Positions 2,748 to 58,985 of a stretch of 64,000 bases of DNA are shown one piece after another. Origin of the DNA: Liolophura sinensis (Eukaryota > Mollusca > Polyplacophora > Chitonida > Chitonidae); contig NC_088306.1 of assembly GCF_032854445.1 (NCBI RefSeq), forward strand, positions 6,383,924 to 6,447,923, given 5' to 3'. Each line of letters opens with the position of its first letter. Position 1 is the first letter of the stretch. A program made the translations under genes and the position numbers. A model generated the notes under the pieces. It was not told where the DNA came from and did not search any database. It saw only the letters and a program-made list of their open reading frames with translations.

Positions 2748-3013
2748 GGGGCCTCCGTGGCTCAGTCGGTTAAAGCGCTAGCGCAGCGTATTGACCCAGG
2801 AGTCTCTCACCAATGTGGTCGCTGTGAGTTCAAGTCCAGCTCATGCTGGCTTCCTCTCCGGCCGTACGTGAGAAGGTCTGACAGCAACCTGCGGATGGTC
2901 GCGGGTTTCCCCCGGGCTCTGCCCGGTTCCACCCACCATAATGCTGGCAGCCGTCGTATAAGTGAAATATTCTTGAGCACGGCGTAAAACACCAATCAAA
3001 AAAAAAAAAAAAA
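2748..3013 (+). mobile_element. Full-length tRNA-derived SINE (SINE-1) with perfect 12-bp target duplication
   Basis: The 5' head is tRNA-like, with an A-box-like CTCCGTGGCTCAGTCGG and a B-box-like GTGAGTTCAAGTCC. The body runs through CAGCAACCTGCGGATGGTCG and CCATAATGCTGGC to the family tail GTATAAGTGAAATATTCTTG, GGCGTAAAACACCAATC and a poly-A run. It is flanked by an exact 12-bp duplication, TCTAAATGTATA, at 2736-2747 and 3014-3025. That shows target-primed retroposition and fixes both ends. The perfect duplication and near-consensus body make it the youngest-looking SINE here. Open frames across it are incidental. Confidence 0.93.
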
Positions 3014-3025
3014 TCTAAATGTATA

Positions 3026-4611: not shown

Positions 4612-5709
4612 TTACACTGCCTGTCCCTTCGGTAACAATTTCATTTGTGTTTTCGCTGAATTCGCGTCGGTTACGTAGGAGTTACTCGTGACTTCTTGTG
4701 GAGGCTCTTTACCCTTTGTTTTCAACGGGTTAAGGCATACGCATAATGTCCTTCTGAAACTCTGGGAAAATGTCGCATATGTGATAATGCTGACGGAGAA
4801 CGTCAAGTAATACAACAGCTGCAGTAAATGCTGAGTCAGATACTGCTCAGGTGTGATGTCCCCGTACACTTGTACCTCAAGCCATATCATCACGAGCAGG
4901 GACACTCTCGCGATGTGACTAGGAAGCGCCATGATGATGAAGGAAACGGAAACAGCTGATAACATCCGAGTGATTTGTTGCTGCATCACAACGCTGACGG
5001 AAACACGAAGGCCGTTGTACATCCGCTTGTTTCGGGCTTTCGACATCCACACGGCCTCGAAAGACAAGAACAACAGGACGAGAATGGTGACCGAAGGCAG
5101 GATAAGAGTGACGACCGTGTCTAGGTAGGTGTAGATGGAGTTAATCATATGCATCTCTTGATTCATCTGACACAGGGGGTAATCTTCCATCAGTTCGACG
5201 TGATTTAGCCAGAGAACCGGACAGTATAGAACGAAGGCGGTCACCACCATGCTGGTTATGCACCACTTTGCCCCGCGAATTGTACAGTACTTGCCCACTT
5301 TGAACGGGTAACGAATCCTAACCAGGTTCTCCGTGGTCAAGGCGACAACAAACCAGACGGAAACGAAGGCGCTGATGTAAGTCAGATACAGAACGATCTG
5401 GCAGACGCCTTGTGTGTGGAGCAGAGTCACTTCCACCCTCTCCAGCCAGACAACGAAAGTACATAGTAAAAACACCGTATCGGAGATGGACTTTCCGATG
5501 AGATAGAGGCCACAGGAAGCTTGTCGGAAAGACTTGATGGAAAAGACTAACACCGCAACGATATTCGCCGGAACTCCAAAGGCCAAAATGACAGGAAGTG
5601 AGTATAGATCAATCGTGGTTGTCAGGTGGTACATTTGATAGTCGGCGCTGTGAAACTCATCGCTGTAGTTGTCATATTTGTCCCACGTGTCGTTCGCTGT
5701 GCCTTCCAT
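4612..5709 (-). CDS. Class A (rhodopsin-like) neuropeptide-type G-protein-coupled receptor, intronless
   Basis: A 365-residue seven-helix receptor of the plasma membrane, probably coupling an extracellular peptide to G proteins. I start at the ATG at 5709. The frame stays open upstream to a stop at 5839-5841 but has no other ATG. N-glycosylation sites NDT (6-8) and NYS (14-16) lie in the short outer N-terminus. Helices are near residues 34-57 (GVPANIVAV, as in TM1), 68-90 (D77), 102-125, 150-168, 196-219, 250-277 and 291-315. C103 and C180 can form the TM3-ECL2 disulfide. Key signatures are altered: E/DRY is ENL (127-129) before RIRYPF, the CWLP toggle is MALP (260-263), and NPxxY is SIITY (307-311). 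General resemblance is to the invertebrate FMRFamide/TRH-receptor-like group, but the ligand is unknown. The frame is uninterrupted for 365 codons. A 5' UTR intron is possible. The call of GPCR is secure, the subfamily tentative. Confidence 0.93.
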   Translation of the reverse strand: MEGTANDTWDKYDNYSDEFHSADYQMYHLTTTIDLYSLPVILAFGVPANIVAVLVFSIKSFRQASCGLYLIGKSISDTVFLLCTFVVWLERVEVTLLHTQGVCQIVLYLTYISAFVSVWFVVALTTENLVRIRYPFKVGKYCTIRGAKWCITSMVVTAFVLYCPVLWLNHVELMEDYPLCQMNQEMHMINSIYTYLDTVVTLILPSVTILVLLFLSFEAVWMSKARNKRMYNGLRVSVSVVMQQQITRMLSAVSVSFIIMALPSHIARVSLLVMIWLEVQVYGDITPEQYLTQHLLQLLYYLTFSVSIITYATFSQSFRRTLCVCLNPLKTKGKEPPQEVTSNSYVTDANSAKTQMKLLPKGQAV

Positions 5710-6440
5710 TTCGATGCTAACGGTGACTGGATTCCACTGGAAAGCGACAGAAATCTTCACCAGCTGAAGAAGTGAGCCCCGAAGAAGTCCTTCGCGACGT
5801 AGCGATATAATAGAAATCCTACGTGGTGCGTGTCGCGGTCATCAGCGGGCTAAATGTGTCTCTCCGCCTAAAACAGAAATTTATATAAATGTCAACAAGA
5901 TTTAGAATATTGGTATATTATGTTGAATAACATGCGAAATGCGTCACTAACTTAGATAATTAGAGAGACGATTGCGGTTACCAGTTATCACGTTCTGCCA
6001 TGACATGCGTGTTATATAACCGTGCTGTCCTGCCATATACATCACACATGCGCATCCAAACTATCACCAACAATACAGTTAACAACAAACAGTGTGAGGA
6101 ACCGAGAGATAGACTTTTGAATTGTCGTTTGGGCTTGCAAATATATGTCATGTAAGGGTGTAAAACTAGTAATGAGTACGGTCACAATTAGACTTACAGT
6201 GCAGCAGGCCCATTATCACTAGAAAGGTGAAAATCTGATTCGATTTTTTTTTGATTTGTTGCGTGATAATAAGCAATTTGTGCACACTAACGCACATGCG
6301 CTAATTATTTAAATGTTCGCCTCTACGTGTAATCCCACCCCCTCTTAACAATGCTTTGAGTTTTGTTCGAGAGGAGTATCCTGCCGTCAAGTCTGGTGTA
6401 GAGGTGTTAGGGTGAAGTTTATTTGATCACTCATTTCAGA
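5710..6440. other. Receptor 5' flank
   Basis: This holds the 5' UTR and upstream region of the minus-strand receptor. Weak acceptor-like sites (TTTCCAG, GAATCCAG on the minus strand) lie between 5710 and 5760, so a spliced leader exon cannot be excluded. I see no clear TATA box. Confidence 0.35.
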
Positions 6441-37947: not shown

Positions 37948-38132
37948 TTCAAGTCCAGCTCATGCTGGCTTCCTCTATGGCCGTATGTGGGAAGGTCTCC
38001 CAGCAACCTGCAGATGGTCGTGGGTTTCCCCCATGCTCTGCCCGGTTTCCACCCATCATAATGCTGGCCGCCGTCGTATAAGTGAAATATTCTTGAATAC
38101 GGTGTAAAACACCAATCAAATAAATAAATAAA
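37948..38132 (+). mobile_element. SINE-1, 5'-truncated, with 14-bp target duplication
   Basis: Starts at the B-box (TTCAAGTCCAGCTCATGCTG) and runs to a clean (TAAA)n tail. Flanked by TCTGTATTTATCAG (37934-37947) and TCTGGATTTATCAG (38133-38146), 13 of 14 matching. The body is near consensus, so the insertion is fairly young. Confidence 0.92.
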
Positions 38133-38146
38133 TCTGGATTTATCAG

Positions 38147-38753: not shown

Positions 38754-38788
38754 ATATCTCCTGTCATCTGGAAAAACCTAGTAAGTCA
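38754..38788 (+). repeat. Left terminal inverted repeat
   Basis: Pairs with 40568-40602 at 33 of 35 positions. It includes one copy of the 19-bp motif at 38770-38788. Confidence 0.88.
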
Positions 38789-38821
38789 AATTTTGGTGAA
38801 AAATGAGTTAGGCCCACAACT

Positions 38822-39102
38822 GGACTTGCTATGTTTTTCTCTTTCATTTCATCCAGGTAAAGTGTGTGAAAGTCCCTCCTGTTGAGAATTTTTGATCTTG
38901 AAGAACCTAGTAAGTCAATATCATGTGGAAAAATACCACATAGTCATCTGGGAAAACCTAGTAACTCGTCTTGCTAGGTTTTTCCAGATCAATGTACGAC
39001 TACATGTCACTTACTAGGTTCTACAAGATCAAAAGCTCTCAACAGGAATCGCTTTCACACTCTTTACCTGGATCAATTGAAAGGGAAAAACATAGCAAGT
39101 CA
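38822..39102. repeat. Nested palindrome in the transposon left subterminal region
   Basis: Outer arms of about 90 bases (38822-38914 and 39009-39102) are imperfect reverse complements. For example GGACTTGCTATGTTTTTCTC pairs with GGGAAAAACATAGCAAGTCA, and ATCCAGGTAAAGTGTGTGAA pairs with TTCACACTCTTTACCTGGAT-type sequence. Inside, arms of 19 bases (38946-38964 and 38971-38989) form a second hairpin around a 6-base loop. Five of the 19-bp motif copies sit on these arms and a sixth straddles the right edge. Confidence 0.8.
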
Positions 39103-39152
39103 AATTATTTCTCATATGAGTTAAACCAATCACATTACCTAATTCTGGTCAT

Positions 39153-40103
39153 GTGATCACAACAAATTGGACAACTTTTTTAAAGACAATTCAGTCAGGA
39201 TGTTCTCACGTTTTCTGTACCCATTATCGAGAAGACCACGATGGTGCTGTTGATAAGGAAAACGCCAGTATATTTACTGTAGATATGCAAAAGGTTATCC
39301 TCCTTCCCAAAATGACCATCAAAGAACATTTCTTTGTTAGCAGATTAGTTGTCTTCAATGAGACATTTGCATCAGTAAAAGAAGACGGTGACTTTGTTAT
39401 TTTGTGGCATGAGGCTATCAGGGGTAGATTAGGAGTTGACATTGCCTCCACGTATATAAAGTGTTTGTGCCTTTGTGAGACAGATTTTGTGATATTCTGG
39501 GCAGACAACTGCACGGGACAAAACAAAAACTGGGTCCCTTACACGGTGTTGTGTTGGTGTGTCAATCAACCCTGGGGCCCACAAAGTATCACAATGAAGT
39601 ATTTTGAAAGGGGACACACTTTTATGCGTGCAGACAGCGTCCATGGCTGCATTGGAAGGAAAATGAAGAAATGTCCCGAGATTTGTAATTTCCAGGACTT
39701 CGTAGATTTGTGTGACAAATCGGGAACTAAGATCAAGCCAATCACAATGCAATACCATGACTTTTATGAATTTGAGGACGGTCACGGTAATAGAAAGTCC
39801 AAGAACGTAACGCTACCTCATCTCAGCTCCATACCAGTGGCAGAATTTCGTAAAGGTTCACGCGCAATGTGGTTTAAGGAGGGTTTTGAAGGAGACTACA
39901 TGTACCAGGAAGTTGACTTTCTTAAACCCAAGTTCAGACTGGACTTTACACCACCAACACAGAATGAACCAAGAGGAATTCCTAGCGTGAAACGCCAGAA
40001 TATTCTGAAACTGGCCGATTCATTCCCCGCTGCTAAGAGGAAATTCTGGCAGGAAATTCCAGTAAATGACAACAATGATGACCTTGTTGAACACTTTGGG
40101 TGA
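39153..40103 (+). CDS. Transposase-like protein with DNC-GQNKN motif (DUF7869-like), 5' end uncertain
   Basis: An intact frame of 316 codons that stays open back to 39120. It begins at GTG here. The first ATG in frame is codon 45 (39285), so the real protein either starts there or gains an upstream exon. Motifs: VDMQKVILLPK (43-53), then WHEAIRGRLGVDIAS (85-99), FWADNCTGQNKN (115-126), GHTFMRADSVHGCIGRKMKK (154-173) and a tail IPSVKRQNILKLADSFP (276-292). This order matches, from memory, a widespread uncharacterised animal and fungal family typed by DNC-GQNKN (Pfam DUF7869, not checked). D118, D161 and H164, with D44, are candidate catalytic acids or metal ligands. The N-terminal half typical of relatives is missing. 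Placement between inverted repeats argues for transposase function. That function is inferred. Confidence 0.8.
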   Translation: MITTNWTTFLKTIQSGCSHVFCTHYREDHDGAVDKENASIFTVDMQKVILLPKMTIKEHFFVSRLVVFNETFASVKEDGDFVILWHEAIRGRLGVDIASTYIKCLCLCETDFVIFWADNCTGQNKNWVPYTVLCWCVNQPWGPQSITMKYFERGHTFMRADSVHGCIGRKMKKCPEICNFQDFVDLCDKSGTKIKPITMQYHDFYEFEDGHGNRKSKNVTLPHLSSIPVAEFRKGSRAMWFKEGFEGDYMYQEVDFLKPKFRLDFTPPTQNEPRGIPSVKRQNILKLADSFPAAKRKFWQEIPVNDNNDDLVEHFG

Positions 40104-40137
40104 TTCCTAAATATGTAATCAAGCTGCAGTTGCTGCT

Positions 40138-40233
40138 ATTCCTCGAAAATGTCTCAGACTGGTAGATTTATTTACCACGGCTAAGATAAAATTCTGGCTG
40201 GAAATCACAGCAAATCATGATCTTGTTGATTAG
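40138..40233 (+). pseudogene. Decayed second copy of the transposase tail
   Basis: Just past the stop, a frame reads IPRKCLRLVDLF, TTAKIKFWLEI and then ANHDLVD before TAG. It parallels the real tail (IPSVKRQNILKLADSF, PAAKRKFWQEIPV, NDNNDDLVE). Spacing of about 158 bases points to a tandem duplication of the 3' end. It has no start of its own and is probably untranslated. Confidence 0.7.
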
Positions 40234-40567
40234 TTAAAACACTTGTTTTATGTATTCAAACTACACTTGGTGTTATTTCTCTGATAATTGTTCATGTGTT
40301 AGGCAATAAAGTGAAGTTATCACGCTGCTGTTGACATACTAGGCTTTTGTTGATAAAATGTTTTAGTTGAAGGATTGGTTAGATCAGGTAAAACATAGTA
40401 AGTCATTTTGTAACCAAATTAAACCAGTAACAATAATATACCTATGTGAGCTGAAAAGGCATCTAATTGTCTTGATCTAAAATGCCGAAATAAAATTTAT
40501 TTCATATTTTGCAGCTTAATCCTGAAACAAAACACGTTTCCTTTGTTTCCTCCAATTTGCATTCAAC

Positions 40568-40602
40568 TGACTAACTAGGTTTTTCCAGATTACAGGAGAT
40601 AT
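40568..40602 (-). repeat. Right terminal inverted repeat
   Basis: TGACTAACTAGGTTTTTCC, then AGATTACAGGAGATAT. It complements the left terminus with two mismatches. Confidence 0.88.
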
Positions 40603-47274: not shown

Positions 47275-48025
47275 TCCGTTGTCCACTGTCGCCAGTTGTT
47301 CTCTGGAAACCCTGTTTTCACTAATTAAGGAGAACTAAAGGAGTATCCGGTTACAGCTATCTTGTTCAATGTCGACGCTCATGCCGTACACATGTGTGCA
47401 TTAATGGTTATTGCAAATTTGTGAAATCACCTTAGCATGTATATGCAAAAGTCATATGTAGCCGATCAGGTGGCTTTGAGTGAATTGTTTTGGGTTACTC
47501 ATATATGACATATAAACAATCTGATGTGTAGTGTTTCCTGTTTTGAGTAGATGGGGGGGGGGGGGGGGGGAGAATTGTTTCACTCAGATGTTTCTCCTAC
47601 AATTAACCCTACATAATATTTCACGTGGTCTTCCGTTTTAGCGTCGCATACAAGTCTTCAGAGAAAATCGACATTGCGCTCTTTCGGGTTTAGTCATTTT
47701 CCGACCCGCCTTGAGCAACGAAATAACGCGTTTCCACCAATTAGTGATGAATAAAGGAGTATCCAGTTACAGCCATCTTGTACAATGTCGACGCTCTACG
47801 GTACGGTCAAGAACGAAGGAATTTCTTGCCTGGATATATGCTAGTATAAATCACAGCGGGGAGACGTCCAACACTTGAGCACGGGGCATCCTGATTTTCC
47901 ATCAAATTGTTTTAGCCGTTATGCCCTTCTCTGCAATGTGTTAAAGCCACCTTGTTCACGTCTGATATGTTAGAATTACTGATCTACAAACTTCTCGTTT
48001 TTATTTACGCTCTTAAGGCATAAGT
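47275..48025 (+). repeat. Mixed blocks M, J and K (partial extra copies)
   Basis: Order: an M piece (47275-47380), J copy 3 (47395-47500), the start of K (47585-47740, GCGTCGCATACAAGTCTTCA and GACATTGCGCTCTTTCGGGT), then M again (47740-48025). The phrase GGAGTATCC(G/A)GTTACAGC(T/C)A occurs twice. An 18-G tract sits at 47553-47570 where copy 2 has A-rich sequence. Confidence 0.65.
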
Positions 48026-48640
48026 AGGGATTTACAATGACGTCGACCAGTACTTAAGCCTTTTTTATATAAGAATTGATTTTCAACCACGTCGTTCTGT
48101 ATTATTCTTTTGTGAAATCTTAGATTTACAACCACGTCGTTCAATATTTAGGCTTTTTTATGAGCACTGATTTACAATCACGTCCCTCTGTATTTAGGTT
48201 CTTTCATAAGCATCGATGTACAACCACGTCGTTCCCATTTAGGCTTTTATCTAAGCATTGATTTACAATCATCTCGTTCAGTATTTAGCTTCTTTATGAG
48301 CATTGCTTTACAACCACGTCTTCCAGTATTTAGGGTTTTTAACAAGCAAGGATTCACAACCACGTCGTTCTGAATTTATTTTTTTATAAGAATGGATGCG
48401 CAGCCACCTCATACCCTATTTAGGTTTTTTTATAAGCATGGTTTTATAACAACGACGCTGAGAATCTAGGCATTTTTTATAAGCATGGATGGACAACCGC
48501 GTCGTTCTGTATTCGACTTTTCATAACCATGGTATACAACCACCTCGTTCAATACTTAGGCTTTGATATAAGCATGGCTTTACAACAATCTCGTTCGGTG
48601 TTTAGACTTTCAAACCATGTCGTTGAAACCCTGACGTGTC
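48026..48640 (+). repeat. Minisatellite, about 13 diverged units of about 46 bp
   Basis: The consensus unit contains TTTACAACCACGTCGTTC, then AGTATTTAGGCTTTTTTATA and AGCATGGA. Units vary and differ by indels, so the array is old. Single or double units lie at the matching place near 34.4-34.65 kb. Confidence 0.85.
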
Positions 48641-48769
48641 ACGCTGTGCTTTATACATGCTATTGTGGACACTTATGCACTTCATGATTTCACAGCAAAA
48701 AAGGCTGGTACAGGCCTCTTCAATAGATTCCCTGTGGCATACTTCTTCAGTTCAATCATATTGATGGTA

Positions 48770-49051
48770 CGTGTACATATTCTCGACCTGTGAGATGCAT
48801 GTACTGTATATTCTCGGCCCATTAGATTTGTTGCATACCGTGTACATGTACTGTCTTTGTATATTCTCGGCCCATTAGATTTGTTGCATATCGTGTACAT
48901 GTACTGTCTTTGTATATTCTCGGCCCATTAGATTTGTTGCATACCGTGTACATGTATTGTCTTTGTATATTCTCGGCCCATTAGATTTGTTGCATACCGT
49001 GTACATGTATTGTCTTTGTATATTCTCGGCCCGTGAGATTTGTTGCATGAT
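48770..49051 (+). repeat. Minisatellite, 53-bp unit, about 5.3 copies
   Basis: TTCTCGGCCC recurs at 48811, 48864, 48917, 48970 and 49023 (every 53 bases; the last copy has G for the next A). The copies are nearly identical, so expansion or homogenisation is recent. Unit parts are CATTAGATTTGTTGCATACC and GTGTACATGTACTGTCTTTG. It is a direct tandem repeat without unique spacers, so not a CRISPR array. Confidence 0.93.
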
Positions 49052-51760: not shown

Positions 51761-51764
51761 GCAT

Positions 51765-51975
51765 TCTGAGTAATTCCAGACCAGTGACGTCTAATAAATT
51801 ACAATAATTATCACTGTATTTTTTTTACCAAATTCCGCTCAAGCCATGGTGCTAGGTGACGTGTAAATTGTTACTATTTATGCATTTACATGAACAATTA
51901 GAATAAAACCCTCACTCAGATAAATTGACAAGGGACCGCACATGTATTTTACGTGTGACCATCGCACCGTTGTTG
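51765..51975 (+). repeat. Dispersed repeat B, extended copy
   Basis: ATTCCAGACCAGTGACGTCT, AATTCCGCTCAAGCCATGGT, ATGAACAATTAGAATAAAAC and TTACGTGTGACCATCG. It aligns with 23415-23670 from the upstream part onward. Confidence 0.75.
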
Positions 51976-56973: not shown

Positions 56974-57443
56974 AAGTCCGACATTCATATACCATTCGTA
57001 GTCCGTAAGGCGTTCCAAGTCGATAATCGCAAGATCCATTTCCAAAACAACGTTTAACACTAACTCCCAAAGACAAGGGTATGTAAGAAATTATACAAAT
57101 AAGAAATAAAGCCGGTAACACACAAGAGAGAAGCGGTCATCAGTTTTCAATGATGTCGGGCAGACAATGAATATTCCAGGCATGAATTCCATATCCATAA
57201 TTTCAAATTCGTAGTCCACGAATGAGCTCCAGGTCAAATAATTATACAGGTATCTCAGTCGCGCTTTAATTGCAACTGTTCATAAAGGTATTATGCTGAT
57301 GTAATGACCATGGCTACCTTTACGGCCCCTGACCCCAGATTAAGCGGTATTAGATACAGCTTAAAAATGACGAGCGTTACAGACCCTAACCGATCAGACT
57401 GTGATTCAAAAGTAACGGATGATTACGTCTTCCCCGTTAATAT
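56974..57443 (-). repeat. Repeat F, long copy
   Basis: Near-identical partner of 17616-18087. Both end sharply at CCCGTTAATAT. In minus-strand terms this copy lies directly 3' of the reverse-transcriptase relic, so F could be the 3' untranslated part of that element. That link is inferred. Confidence 0.85.
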
Positions 57444-57529
57444 GTAAAGATCTCATCTATGTTGTTAAATACCATGTACGTGATAGATATGTACATAGGG
57501 ATAACAGCGCCGTCTATGTGGTTGATCGC

Positions 57530-58985
57530 AATGCAGCTCGCCAGAGATTCCGAACGCTCTGTCCATACCTGCCAACGAGAGTAAAATTTGAGAAACTTAG
57601 AATGAAGGCGTTTGATGGAGTATCCTTGACAAACTACATGTCGTTTTTGAACTAGCAACTTGTGACGCAGATTAAAGTCATCACAATTAACGCAAGATCT
57701 GACAAATGCTACAAGGCGAGATGTGTATATGCCATATGCAGGGCCCTTTGGTATATTGCTATCTAAATAAGGATAATTTAGCACATCAAAATTGAAATTA
57801 TCCCTTTTGTCGTAAAGGCGGCGTGAAAGGAGACCGTGTTCGTCTTTGTACAGATATAGATCCAAATAAGATGTACCATCAGGACTATCTGTTGTCTCCT
57901 TTAAATCCAATGAAGGCGGATAGATTTCCTTCACGGCTTCAGCAATATGGGGGTTATTTAACGCCAGTAGATTATCAATATACCGCTTGGTAAATGAAAA
58001 GGATCGAGGTTTAAAGATATTACTTTTAAGTAATTTCTGCATATAGTCATATAGTATTCATATGAAAACAGGTAAAAGAGGCGTACAAATGGTACCCATT
58101 GGAATACCTATTCACTGTTGGTAAATGGTATTTCCGAATTTCACATAGATGTTATTAATGAGAAATTCAAGTAATTCAATAATTAATGTAACATGGCATG
58201 AGTGGTAACATTATAAAGAGTAGAACTAAAGAAAGCCTTATTGCTTCTGACGTTAATGTAACGGTGACCTGTTTTAGTATACACCGAGACAATGACGATA
58301 TTCTTTCAATGAGATCTTTGTGACAAATCGTAGTATAGAGAGTATACACATCCCATGTGCATATGTCTTTGTACGGTATATGCATATGAACATCGAGTTC
58401 TTCTGTAAGACGTTTGGAATTGTTAAAAATCCACATGCAGTTGACACCTGAATTTTTTTTGTTATGACACAACAATACTTTTTCCAAAATGACTTTAGTT
58501 CTTGTTACGCTCTCGTAAGTAGGGTTGAAAAGAGTTTGGTAGTACAGCTTCTTGAATCCGCGATAAATCGAGCCTTGTATGGGGATTTATGCATTTTAGG
58601 AATCCAGTAAAGTTGTGGTATTTCTGTATGACGGGTAGGTATACATATGCGCCTTTCTTTAAGAACGGTTTTGTGTTGGTTAAATAGTTCCTCCAGAGTT
58701 CATGTAGTAGGAGAATACGTGGTTGTCGTTGTAGATGCACATAGCTCTTGAACAAGAATTTGATAATAATAATTCTTGCAATTAAAGATGACATTATTGA
58801 GAAGCCTTGTCTGCTCCAGTGATGACAAATTTACAATGAAAGTCAGCGAGTGTTTCTTGCACAGAGGGATCCTTCAGAACCTGTTTAATTTTAGGTAGAG
58901 CATCAATGTCTAGACGGTTTATAATTAAACTAACCTTCTTTTTGACAATCTCAAGCCAATCGTTAAGTGCCGAAGAATCCACTTT
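57530..58985 (-). pseudogene. Reverse transcriptase of a retroelement, frame-broken
   Basis: Pieces of one RT in order on the minus strand, scattered over different frames: an N-terminal piece ending FVITGADKAS (near 58800), LYWIPKMHKSPYKARFIA (about 58550-58610), TWDVYTLYTTICHKDL (near 58320), GIPMGTICTPLL (near 58100) and RYIDNLLALNNP (near 57970), then YLDLYLYKDEHGL and YDKRDNFNFDVLNYPYLDSN toward the C-terminus. The active-site box is YIDN where YIDD is expected, so the second aspartate is lost. Several frameshifts and stops separate the pieces. The order fits a family of invertebrate elements I associate tentatively with Penelope-like RTs. No GIY-YIG endonuclease was found. A SINE abuts its 5' end. 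It is non-functional. Confidence 0.85.

Follow-up and report, generated by a model that had tools for sequence, protein, structure and literature searches.

An internally deleted DNA transposon of Liolophura sinensis and the probable DDD transposase of its DUF7869 family

The window, a stretch of 64,000 nucleotides from the genome of Liolophura sinensis, carries what is very probably a non-autonomous, internally deleted cut-and-paste transposon. Its full-length form would encode a DDD transposase of the DUF7869 family, and the short form would have been moved recently in trans. The features of the element and of the rest of the window are collected in Table 1.

Table 1. Features of the window, with positions counted from its first letter.
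Feature	Position	Strand	Observation
Non-autonomous DNA transposon, internally deleted, 1,841 bp	38758–40598	+	Found as 17 genomic copies whose termini agree and whose flanks differ
Target site duplication ATAT, left copy	38754–38757		4-bp exact duplication in 16/17 copies
Target site duplication ATAT, right copy	40599–40602		4-bp exact duplication in 16/17 copies
Left terminal inverted repeat, 31 bp	38758–38788	+	Starts CTCCTG
Right terminal inverted repeat, 31 bp	40568–40598	-	
Ten copies of a motif like AAAACCTAGTAAGTCA, candidate transposase binding sites	38773–40583 (span)	both	
Subterminal 98-nt inverted repeat	arms 38818–38915 and 39009–39106		87% complementary
Junction of the internal deletion of about 1.87 kb	39217–39219		Common to the short copies (13/13)
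Probable DUF7869 transposase, C-terminal 294 codons	39219–40103	+	D22, D96, and D139 are D44, D118, and D161 in the frame of the sequence-only reading
Frame of 316 codons, starting at GTG	39153–40103		
Stop-to-stop frame, 327 codons	39120–40103		
Codons without a counterpart in the transposase	39153–39218		Homologous part starts at 39219
Empty site corresponding to L017	about 51762–51892		Gapless across a single AATT
Frame of 408 codons, rhodopsin-family seven-helix receptor	4612–5838	-	Pfam 7tm_1, E 5.3e-16
Frame of 206 codons, by impression a retroelement fragment	57437–58057	-	Similar words in L034
Adjoining tandem arrays	48020–49048		Period 46 (12.9 copies, 68% matches) and period 53 (4.6 copies, 97%)
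Examples of repeats of about 170 bp	2833–3016, 37952–38133		Related to a SINE-like repeat in the long copies

A search of the host genome with the 1,849 bases of the element and its duplications gave 52 matches, which fall into 17 loci: 13 near-full short copies (98–100% identity), three long copies (L014, L015, and L016), and L017, a copy with a different internal deletion. The sequence-only reading had made its proposal depend on ends that other genomic copies hold in common, and the same termini are found at all 17 loci, in flanks that differ. When a 24-base pattern of the terminus was run over the 609-Mb host genome with up to two mismatches, it matched at 33 places, every one of them an end of one of the 17 copies (16 left and 17 right); the reversed pattern, run as a control, matched nowhere. 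L015 is missing six bases near its left end. Within the limits of this 24-base pattern search, no further short derivatives with these ends were seen.

The copies also give the length of the target duplication, which had been left to be read from their flanks. It is 4 bp and exact in 16 of the 17 (ATAT, ATTG, AGGA, TAGT, CACT, CGCT, CAAT, ATAA, ATTG, AACC, AAAT, AAAT, TGTA, AGTT, AACA, and AATT), with L003 as the sole copy without a duplication (flanks AAGG and CGCT). Over a length of 3 or 5 bp the flanks agree in none of the 17 copies. As a control, left flanks were paired with right flanks of other loci, and 5 of 272 such pairs agree over 4 bp. In addition, the two flanks of each of the 17 copies were joined and matched against the window and the loci that had been fetched, a set in which paralogous empty sites were found for two loci. 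The site corresponding to L017 lies in the window itself, and that corresponding to L006 is formed by satellite monomers of L025, where the alignment has a 1-base gap at this point. This satellite, seen in L025:1–6601 and in the flanks of L006, has monomers of about 550 bp, one of which holds the short transposon L006 while the others are empty. Thus, 17 copies, 16 exact duplications, and two empty sites establish a mobile DNA element, as the delimited cut-and-paste transposon proposed from the sequence would be. The family was mobile in the past, presumably by excision and reinsertion.

The terminal inverted repeats of the element pair at 29 of 31 positions (two mismatches). They had been described as repeats of 35 bp with 33 matching positions; the repeats are indeed there, but their true length is 31 bp, the ATAT duplication accounting for 4 bp more on either side. 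Because ATAT is a palindrome and pairs with itself, the longer alignment came to 33 of 35. Internal repeats are present as well. With up to three mismatches, the motif listed in Table 1 is matched 10 times in the 64-kb window, all 10 within the element, where a mean of 1.23 would be expected, and these copies are candidate sites for binding by the transposase. Rfam gave no matches across the window, and the 206-codon frame elsewhere in it has no Pfam match at E <= 0.1.

The protein encoded in the window is linked by profile comparisons to a wider family. Pfam finds only DUF7869 (PF25273) in it, at 19.4 bits against a cut-off of 26, in a match that covers the second and third of the aspartates discussed below; a profile built from seven other animal members of the family finds the same protein at 113.8 bits (E 1e-32). 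NCBIfam assigns it to no family, and the PDB, searched by sequence, returned 2 and 2 weak matches (best E 0.031 and 1), none of them to a related protein. In the host genome there are at least 31 DUF7869 matches, a lower bound from 60 scored candidates, and all 31 listed are above the cut-off. The window protein itself has 65 matches there, which range from copies of the element itself, by way of relatives at 38–48%, to diverged families. Of eight animal relatives scanned with Pfam, five exceed the DUF7869 cut-off, two (L035 and L038) do not reach it, and one (L041) has no match.

The relatives also sit in transposons. A further 26 DUF7869 loci (17 and 9) were fetched, and the ends of 23 were sought by script. 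Inverted repeats delimit 18 of these 23 loci, and 14 of the 18 have exact 4-bp duplications; the delimited loci without one are L026, L031, L042, and L035, with a difference of a single base in L026, L031, and L035. An end was not located in five loci, one of which, L025, has AATT on both sides when judged by eye. L029, L032, and L033 are not among the delimited loci. The termini vary among families (for instance, GAAGAG, GAATCGG, CGCTACC, CGCGACC, and CGAGAGC), and the common factor is therefore the protein. By this anatomy of inverted repeats and 4-bp duplications, the earlier proposal that the family protein is a transposase is sustained. One 2.9-kb DUF7869 family, L018–L023, has copies that are 99.55–99.79% identical to L018, with exact 4-bp duplications and an open 451-codon frame in all six fetched copies; it appears a better candidate for a presently active family than that of the window.

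Conservation within the family points to three aspartates. In nine aligned animal rows, that of the window included, the invariant acidic residues are D288, E339, D371, and D415 (L035 numbering), so that D288, D371, and D415 are the sole invariant Asp. These three correspond to the aspartates that the sequence-only reading had picked out (Table 1), and they align in the bacterial rows too, one of which ends short of the first Asp. A Glu seven residues past the third Asp is found in eight of the nine animal rows, is replaced by Gly in the window, and is not there in the bacterial rows; a DDD arrangement is thus favored over DDE. The three Asp are read here as a common acidic triad, presumably the catalytic one.

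Relatives are also encoded by bacteria. One scan of prokaryote genomes gave 44 pattern matches and, from these, nine DUF7869 loci, in Thiomargarita (two), Desulfobacterales, other deltaproteobacteria, a Legionellales bin, and a Verrucomicrobia bin. All nine proteins exceed the DUF7869 cut-off (57.5–88.9 bits). In seven of the nine loci, inverted repeats lie close to the frame on both sides and delimit elements of 2.05–2.72 kb. Six of these (2.06–2.72 kb) are full-length and insertion-sequence-like, with a DUF7869 frame of 635–668 codons that takes up most of their length, and the remaining one, L050, has a frame of 310 codons. Exact 4-bp duplications, judged by eye with the boundary set at the run of G that the elements share, are present at three of the seven delimited loci (L045 AAAT, L048 AATT, and L050 ATTT); the duplication is off by one base in L044, L046, and L052, and L049 does not fit. 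Each of the six bacterial genomes searched has one match, and in the phylum of L049 only one genome in 297, its own, has a match.

When a profile was made from the bacterial proteins, it detected the window protein at E 1.1e-9, against a best value of 1.6 among 2,000 shuffles, and the profile of seven animal relatives finds eight of the nine bacterial proteins, missing L052. For four of the nine bacterial proteins, NCBIfam gave only two matches, both far below the cut-off. A tree built from 19 rows places the window protein with L035 (support 100/100), and the animal protein L029 groups with the bacterial L052 at 88/86, a value below the threshold for strong support, with L052 on a long branch. 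L029 is a 456-aa frame of the host genome (C4:7250700–7257300), with no bounding inverted repeats found within the fetched stretch. Its grouping with a bacterial lineage makes transfer between kingdoms possible. Among viral, phage, and plasmid sequences no relatives were found: in three scans of viral contigs, 11, 11, and 41 stretches fit the pattern and none was confirmed, and neither phages (queried with one animal relative) nor plasmids (queried with one bacterial relative) gave a match.

The predicted structure of a bacterial relative is suggestive of a nuclease-like core. The model of the window protein is unusable (pLDDT 39.6), and that of the bacterial relative L049, built from nine rows, reached a pLDDT of 72.1 and a pTM of 0.53. 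From residue 360 onwards, the L049 model runs strand, strand, strand, helix, strand, helix, strand, which is the order of RNase H folds. In this model, D366 lies in the first strand (360–373), D445 immediately after the fourth strand (439–444), and D487 in a low-confidence loop, the surroundings of the third Asp being below 50 pLDDT. Foldseek gave nothing at E <= 0.001 for the L049 model; its best match was the IstA transposase (5.2e-3), and its list also contains Argonaute, UvrC, and some proteins that are unrelated. A structural second look, which re-aligns only the chains ranked by Foldseek, had 560 chains that reached Z 2. The best 50 of these are Mos1/SETMAR transposases or retroviral integrases with Z of 7.0–8.6, where values below 8 can reflect merely a common arrangement. 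Forty-five of the 50 superpose with an rmsd of 3.0–4.0 over 118–169 residues, and the first four rows (rmsd 14.5–20.8) and row 34 cover more, with an rmsd range of 11.4–20.8. The library of viral structures gave no match at E <= 0.001. The resemblance of the predicted L049 core to transposases and retroviral integrases, at middling scores, is suggestive and not proof.

How the family should be filed is the point on which another reading fares best. It is conceivable, if unlikely, that DUF7869 transposases are a previously unrecognized DDD superfamily of their own, apart from Sola and common to bacteria and animals. Such a superfamily would take in complete insertion-sequence-like bacterial members, many families in one animal, and, in L029, an animal lineage placed among bacterial ones as though it had crossed kingdoms. 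In its favor, none of the scanned proteins, 8 from animals and 9 from bacteria, reaches the cut-off of a Pfam transposase family, a literature search returned no mention of DUF7869 or PF25273, and the papers that contain the motif letters appear unrelated from their titles and the beginnings of their abstracts. Against this, the DDD triad, the 4-bp duplication, the size, and the occurrence in bacteria and metazoa all match the description of Sola in the excerpted part of PMC10741241, and the AWWT duplications of Sola2, as excerpted from PMC3627910, match several of the duplications seen here. The family of the window probably belongs to the Sola superfamily, a membership drawn from a comparison of traits. 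Consequently, the superfamily that the sequence-only reading considered little described has probably been described already, as its traits fit the published account of Sola.

The same reading had taken the 316-codon frame for the transposase. The frame does contain both motifs on which that assignment was based, WADNCTGQNKN and GHTFMRADSVHGCIG. Nevertheless, the frame as a complete transposase was rejected, as the long copies show it to be the C-terminal part left after an internal deletion, in a non-autonomous copy. No in-frame ATG precedes the first of the three aspartates; the first in-frame Met directly follows it. The long copies, of 3,705–3,719 bp, hold 1,871 alignment columns that are absent from the short copy L001. 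The deletion junction is identical in all 13 short copies, with nearby substitutions in L012 and L013. These copies diverge from each other by a mean of 0.44% (0.05–0.77%), and L001 diverges from the three long copies by 1.4–1.5%. The single junction and the lower divergence among the short copies thus point to the recent spread of one deleted form.

L016 can be read as an exon that has its ATG at 790, followed by a GT-AG intron and a second coding part, and the exon limits are tentatively drawn from this. The coding frame is interrupted in each of the three long copies, so this assembly yielded neither an intact long copy nor a source of intact enzyme. No tRNA-like sequence was found in the long element. 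Within their presumed intron, the long elements contain a short SINE-like repeat (L016:1463–1545). Its partial matches run over positions 700–802 of the query (2,054 first-look candidates, 40 of them scored), and the window has many related repeats, each about 170 bp long.

It might be supposed that the short copies have been kept because their truncated protein represses transposition or competes in binding. The KP product of P elements is an example of such a repressor. There are 13 short copies against three long ones, and the 294-codon frame is kept in full in six of the 13, and at 290 and 288 codons in two more, as a retained function would have it. Yet the frame is broken in the other five, and the absence of an ATG ahead of the first Asp counts against a product of this kind. 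The short-copy frames have 15 nonsynonymous and three synonymous changes, against an expectation of 3.38 to 1 in the absence of selection; with few changes, the comparison has little power, and it shows no sign of purifying selection. A truncated repressor under selection, which these counts do not support, is very unlikely, and the 294-codon frame is most likely carried passively. Still less credible is a DUF7869 protein that is cargo, or a captured host gene, in an unrelated transposon; the window protein alone matches DUF7869 weakly, and L029, L032, and L033 have no demonstrated element ends, but this reading was rejected because several DUF7869 families with differing termini are each bounded by inverted repeats and because the frame fills most of six bacterial elements.

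The favored reading, a deleted transposon of a DUF7869 DDD family, can be put as a sequence of steps. A full element of about 3.7 kb would encode a transposase of the DUF7869 family whose core is RNase H-like, and this enzyme would bind the terminal and subterminal repeats. The three Asp, with metal ions, would cut both 31-bp ends, and these would be joined to target DNA with a 4-bp stagger, the gaps being filled by host repair to leave the 4-bp duplications. One copy would have lost about 1.87 kb, comprising exon 1, the intron, and about the first half of exon 2 in the putative exon structure. This shortened form would then have been moved in trans, very recently, to at least 13 places.

With these observations, DUF7869, a Pfam domain of unknown function, gains a likely one, that of a DDD transposase with a 4-bp target duplication. 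From the comparisons made here, it is likely to be readable in this way in bacteria and in Liolophura sinensis. Many DUF7869 gene models in annotations may, by extension, be transposon genes. The defined ends, the duplications, the empty sites, and the compact bacterial relatives are material with which the reaction could be tested.

Among known systems, the DUF7869 entry of Pfam gives no function, and the window protein scores below its cut-off. The ISAzo13-type transposase (PF07592) has weak matches in three of the nine bacterial proteins (E 0.018, 0.02, and 0.13), which include the second and third acids. However, these are far below the Pfam cut-off, and hhalign gave probabilities of 0.7% and 6.7%, with the first and second acids coinciding in the better run. 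Tc1/mariner provides the highest Z for the L049 model (Mos1, 8.6, at an rmsd of 19.7), and SETMAR reaches 8.0 with an rmsd of 4.0 over 160 residues. By contrast, the target duplication of Tc1/mariner is by rule TA, not the 4 bp seen in 16 of 17 copies, and the window protein has no Pfam match to Tc1/mariner. PiggyBac, which the excerpted literature describes as having a DDD transposase and a TTAA target, is similar in its triad and its 4-base target, but none of the 17 copies is flanked by TTAA and there is no Pfam match to piggyBac.

The closest likeness is to Sola. The excerpts of PMC10741241 describe a DDD enzyme, a 4-bp duplication, elements mostly of 2–9 kb, and repeats of 11–1124 bp, in bacteria and metazoa; the triad, duplication, size, inverted repeats, and distribution of DUF7869 elements are alike. 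The AWWT duplications given for Sola2-type elements in the excerpts of PMC3627910 resemble those of several DUF7869 families here, while the duplications of the window's own family follow no strict consensus. The window copy, at 1.84 kb, is under the size range of Sola because it is deleted. Sola elements are reported in bivalves in the consulted part of PMC10294476, and PMC4455052, PMC10045372, and PMC11071193 provided background. Should the family be Sola, which is likely, two names will have been connected, with no new kind of mobile element added.
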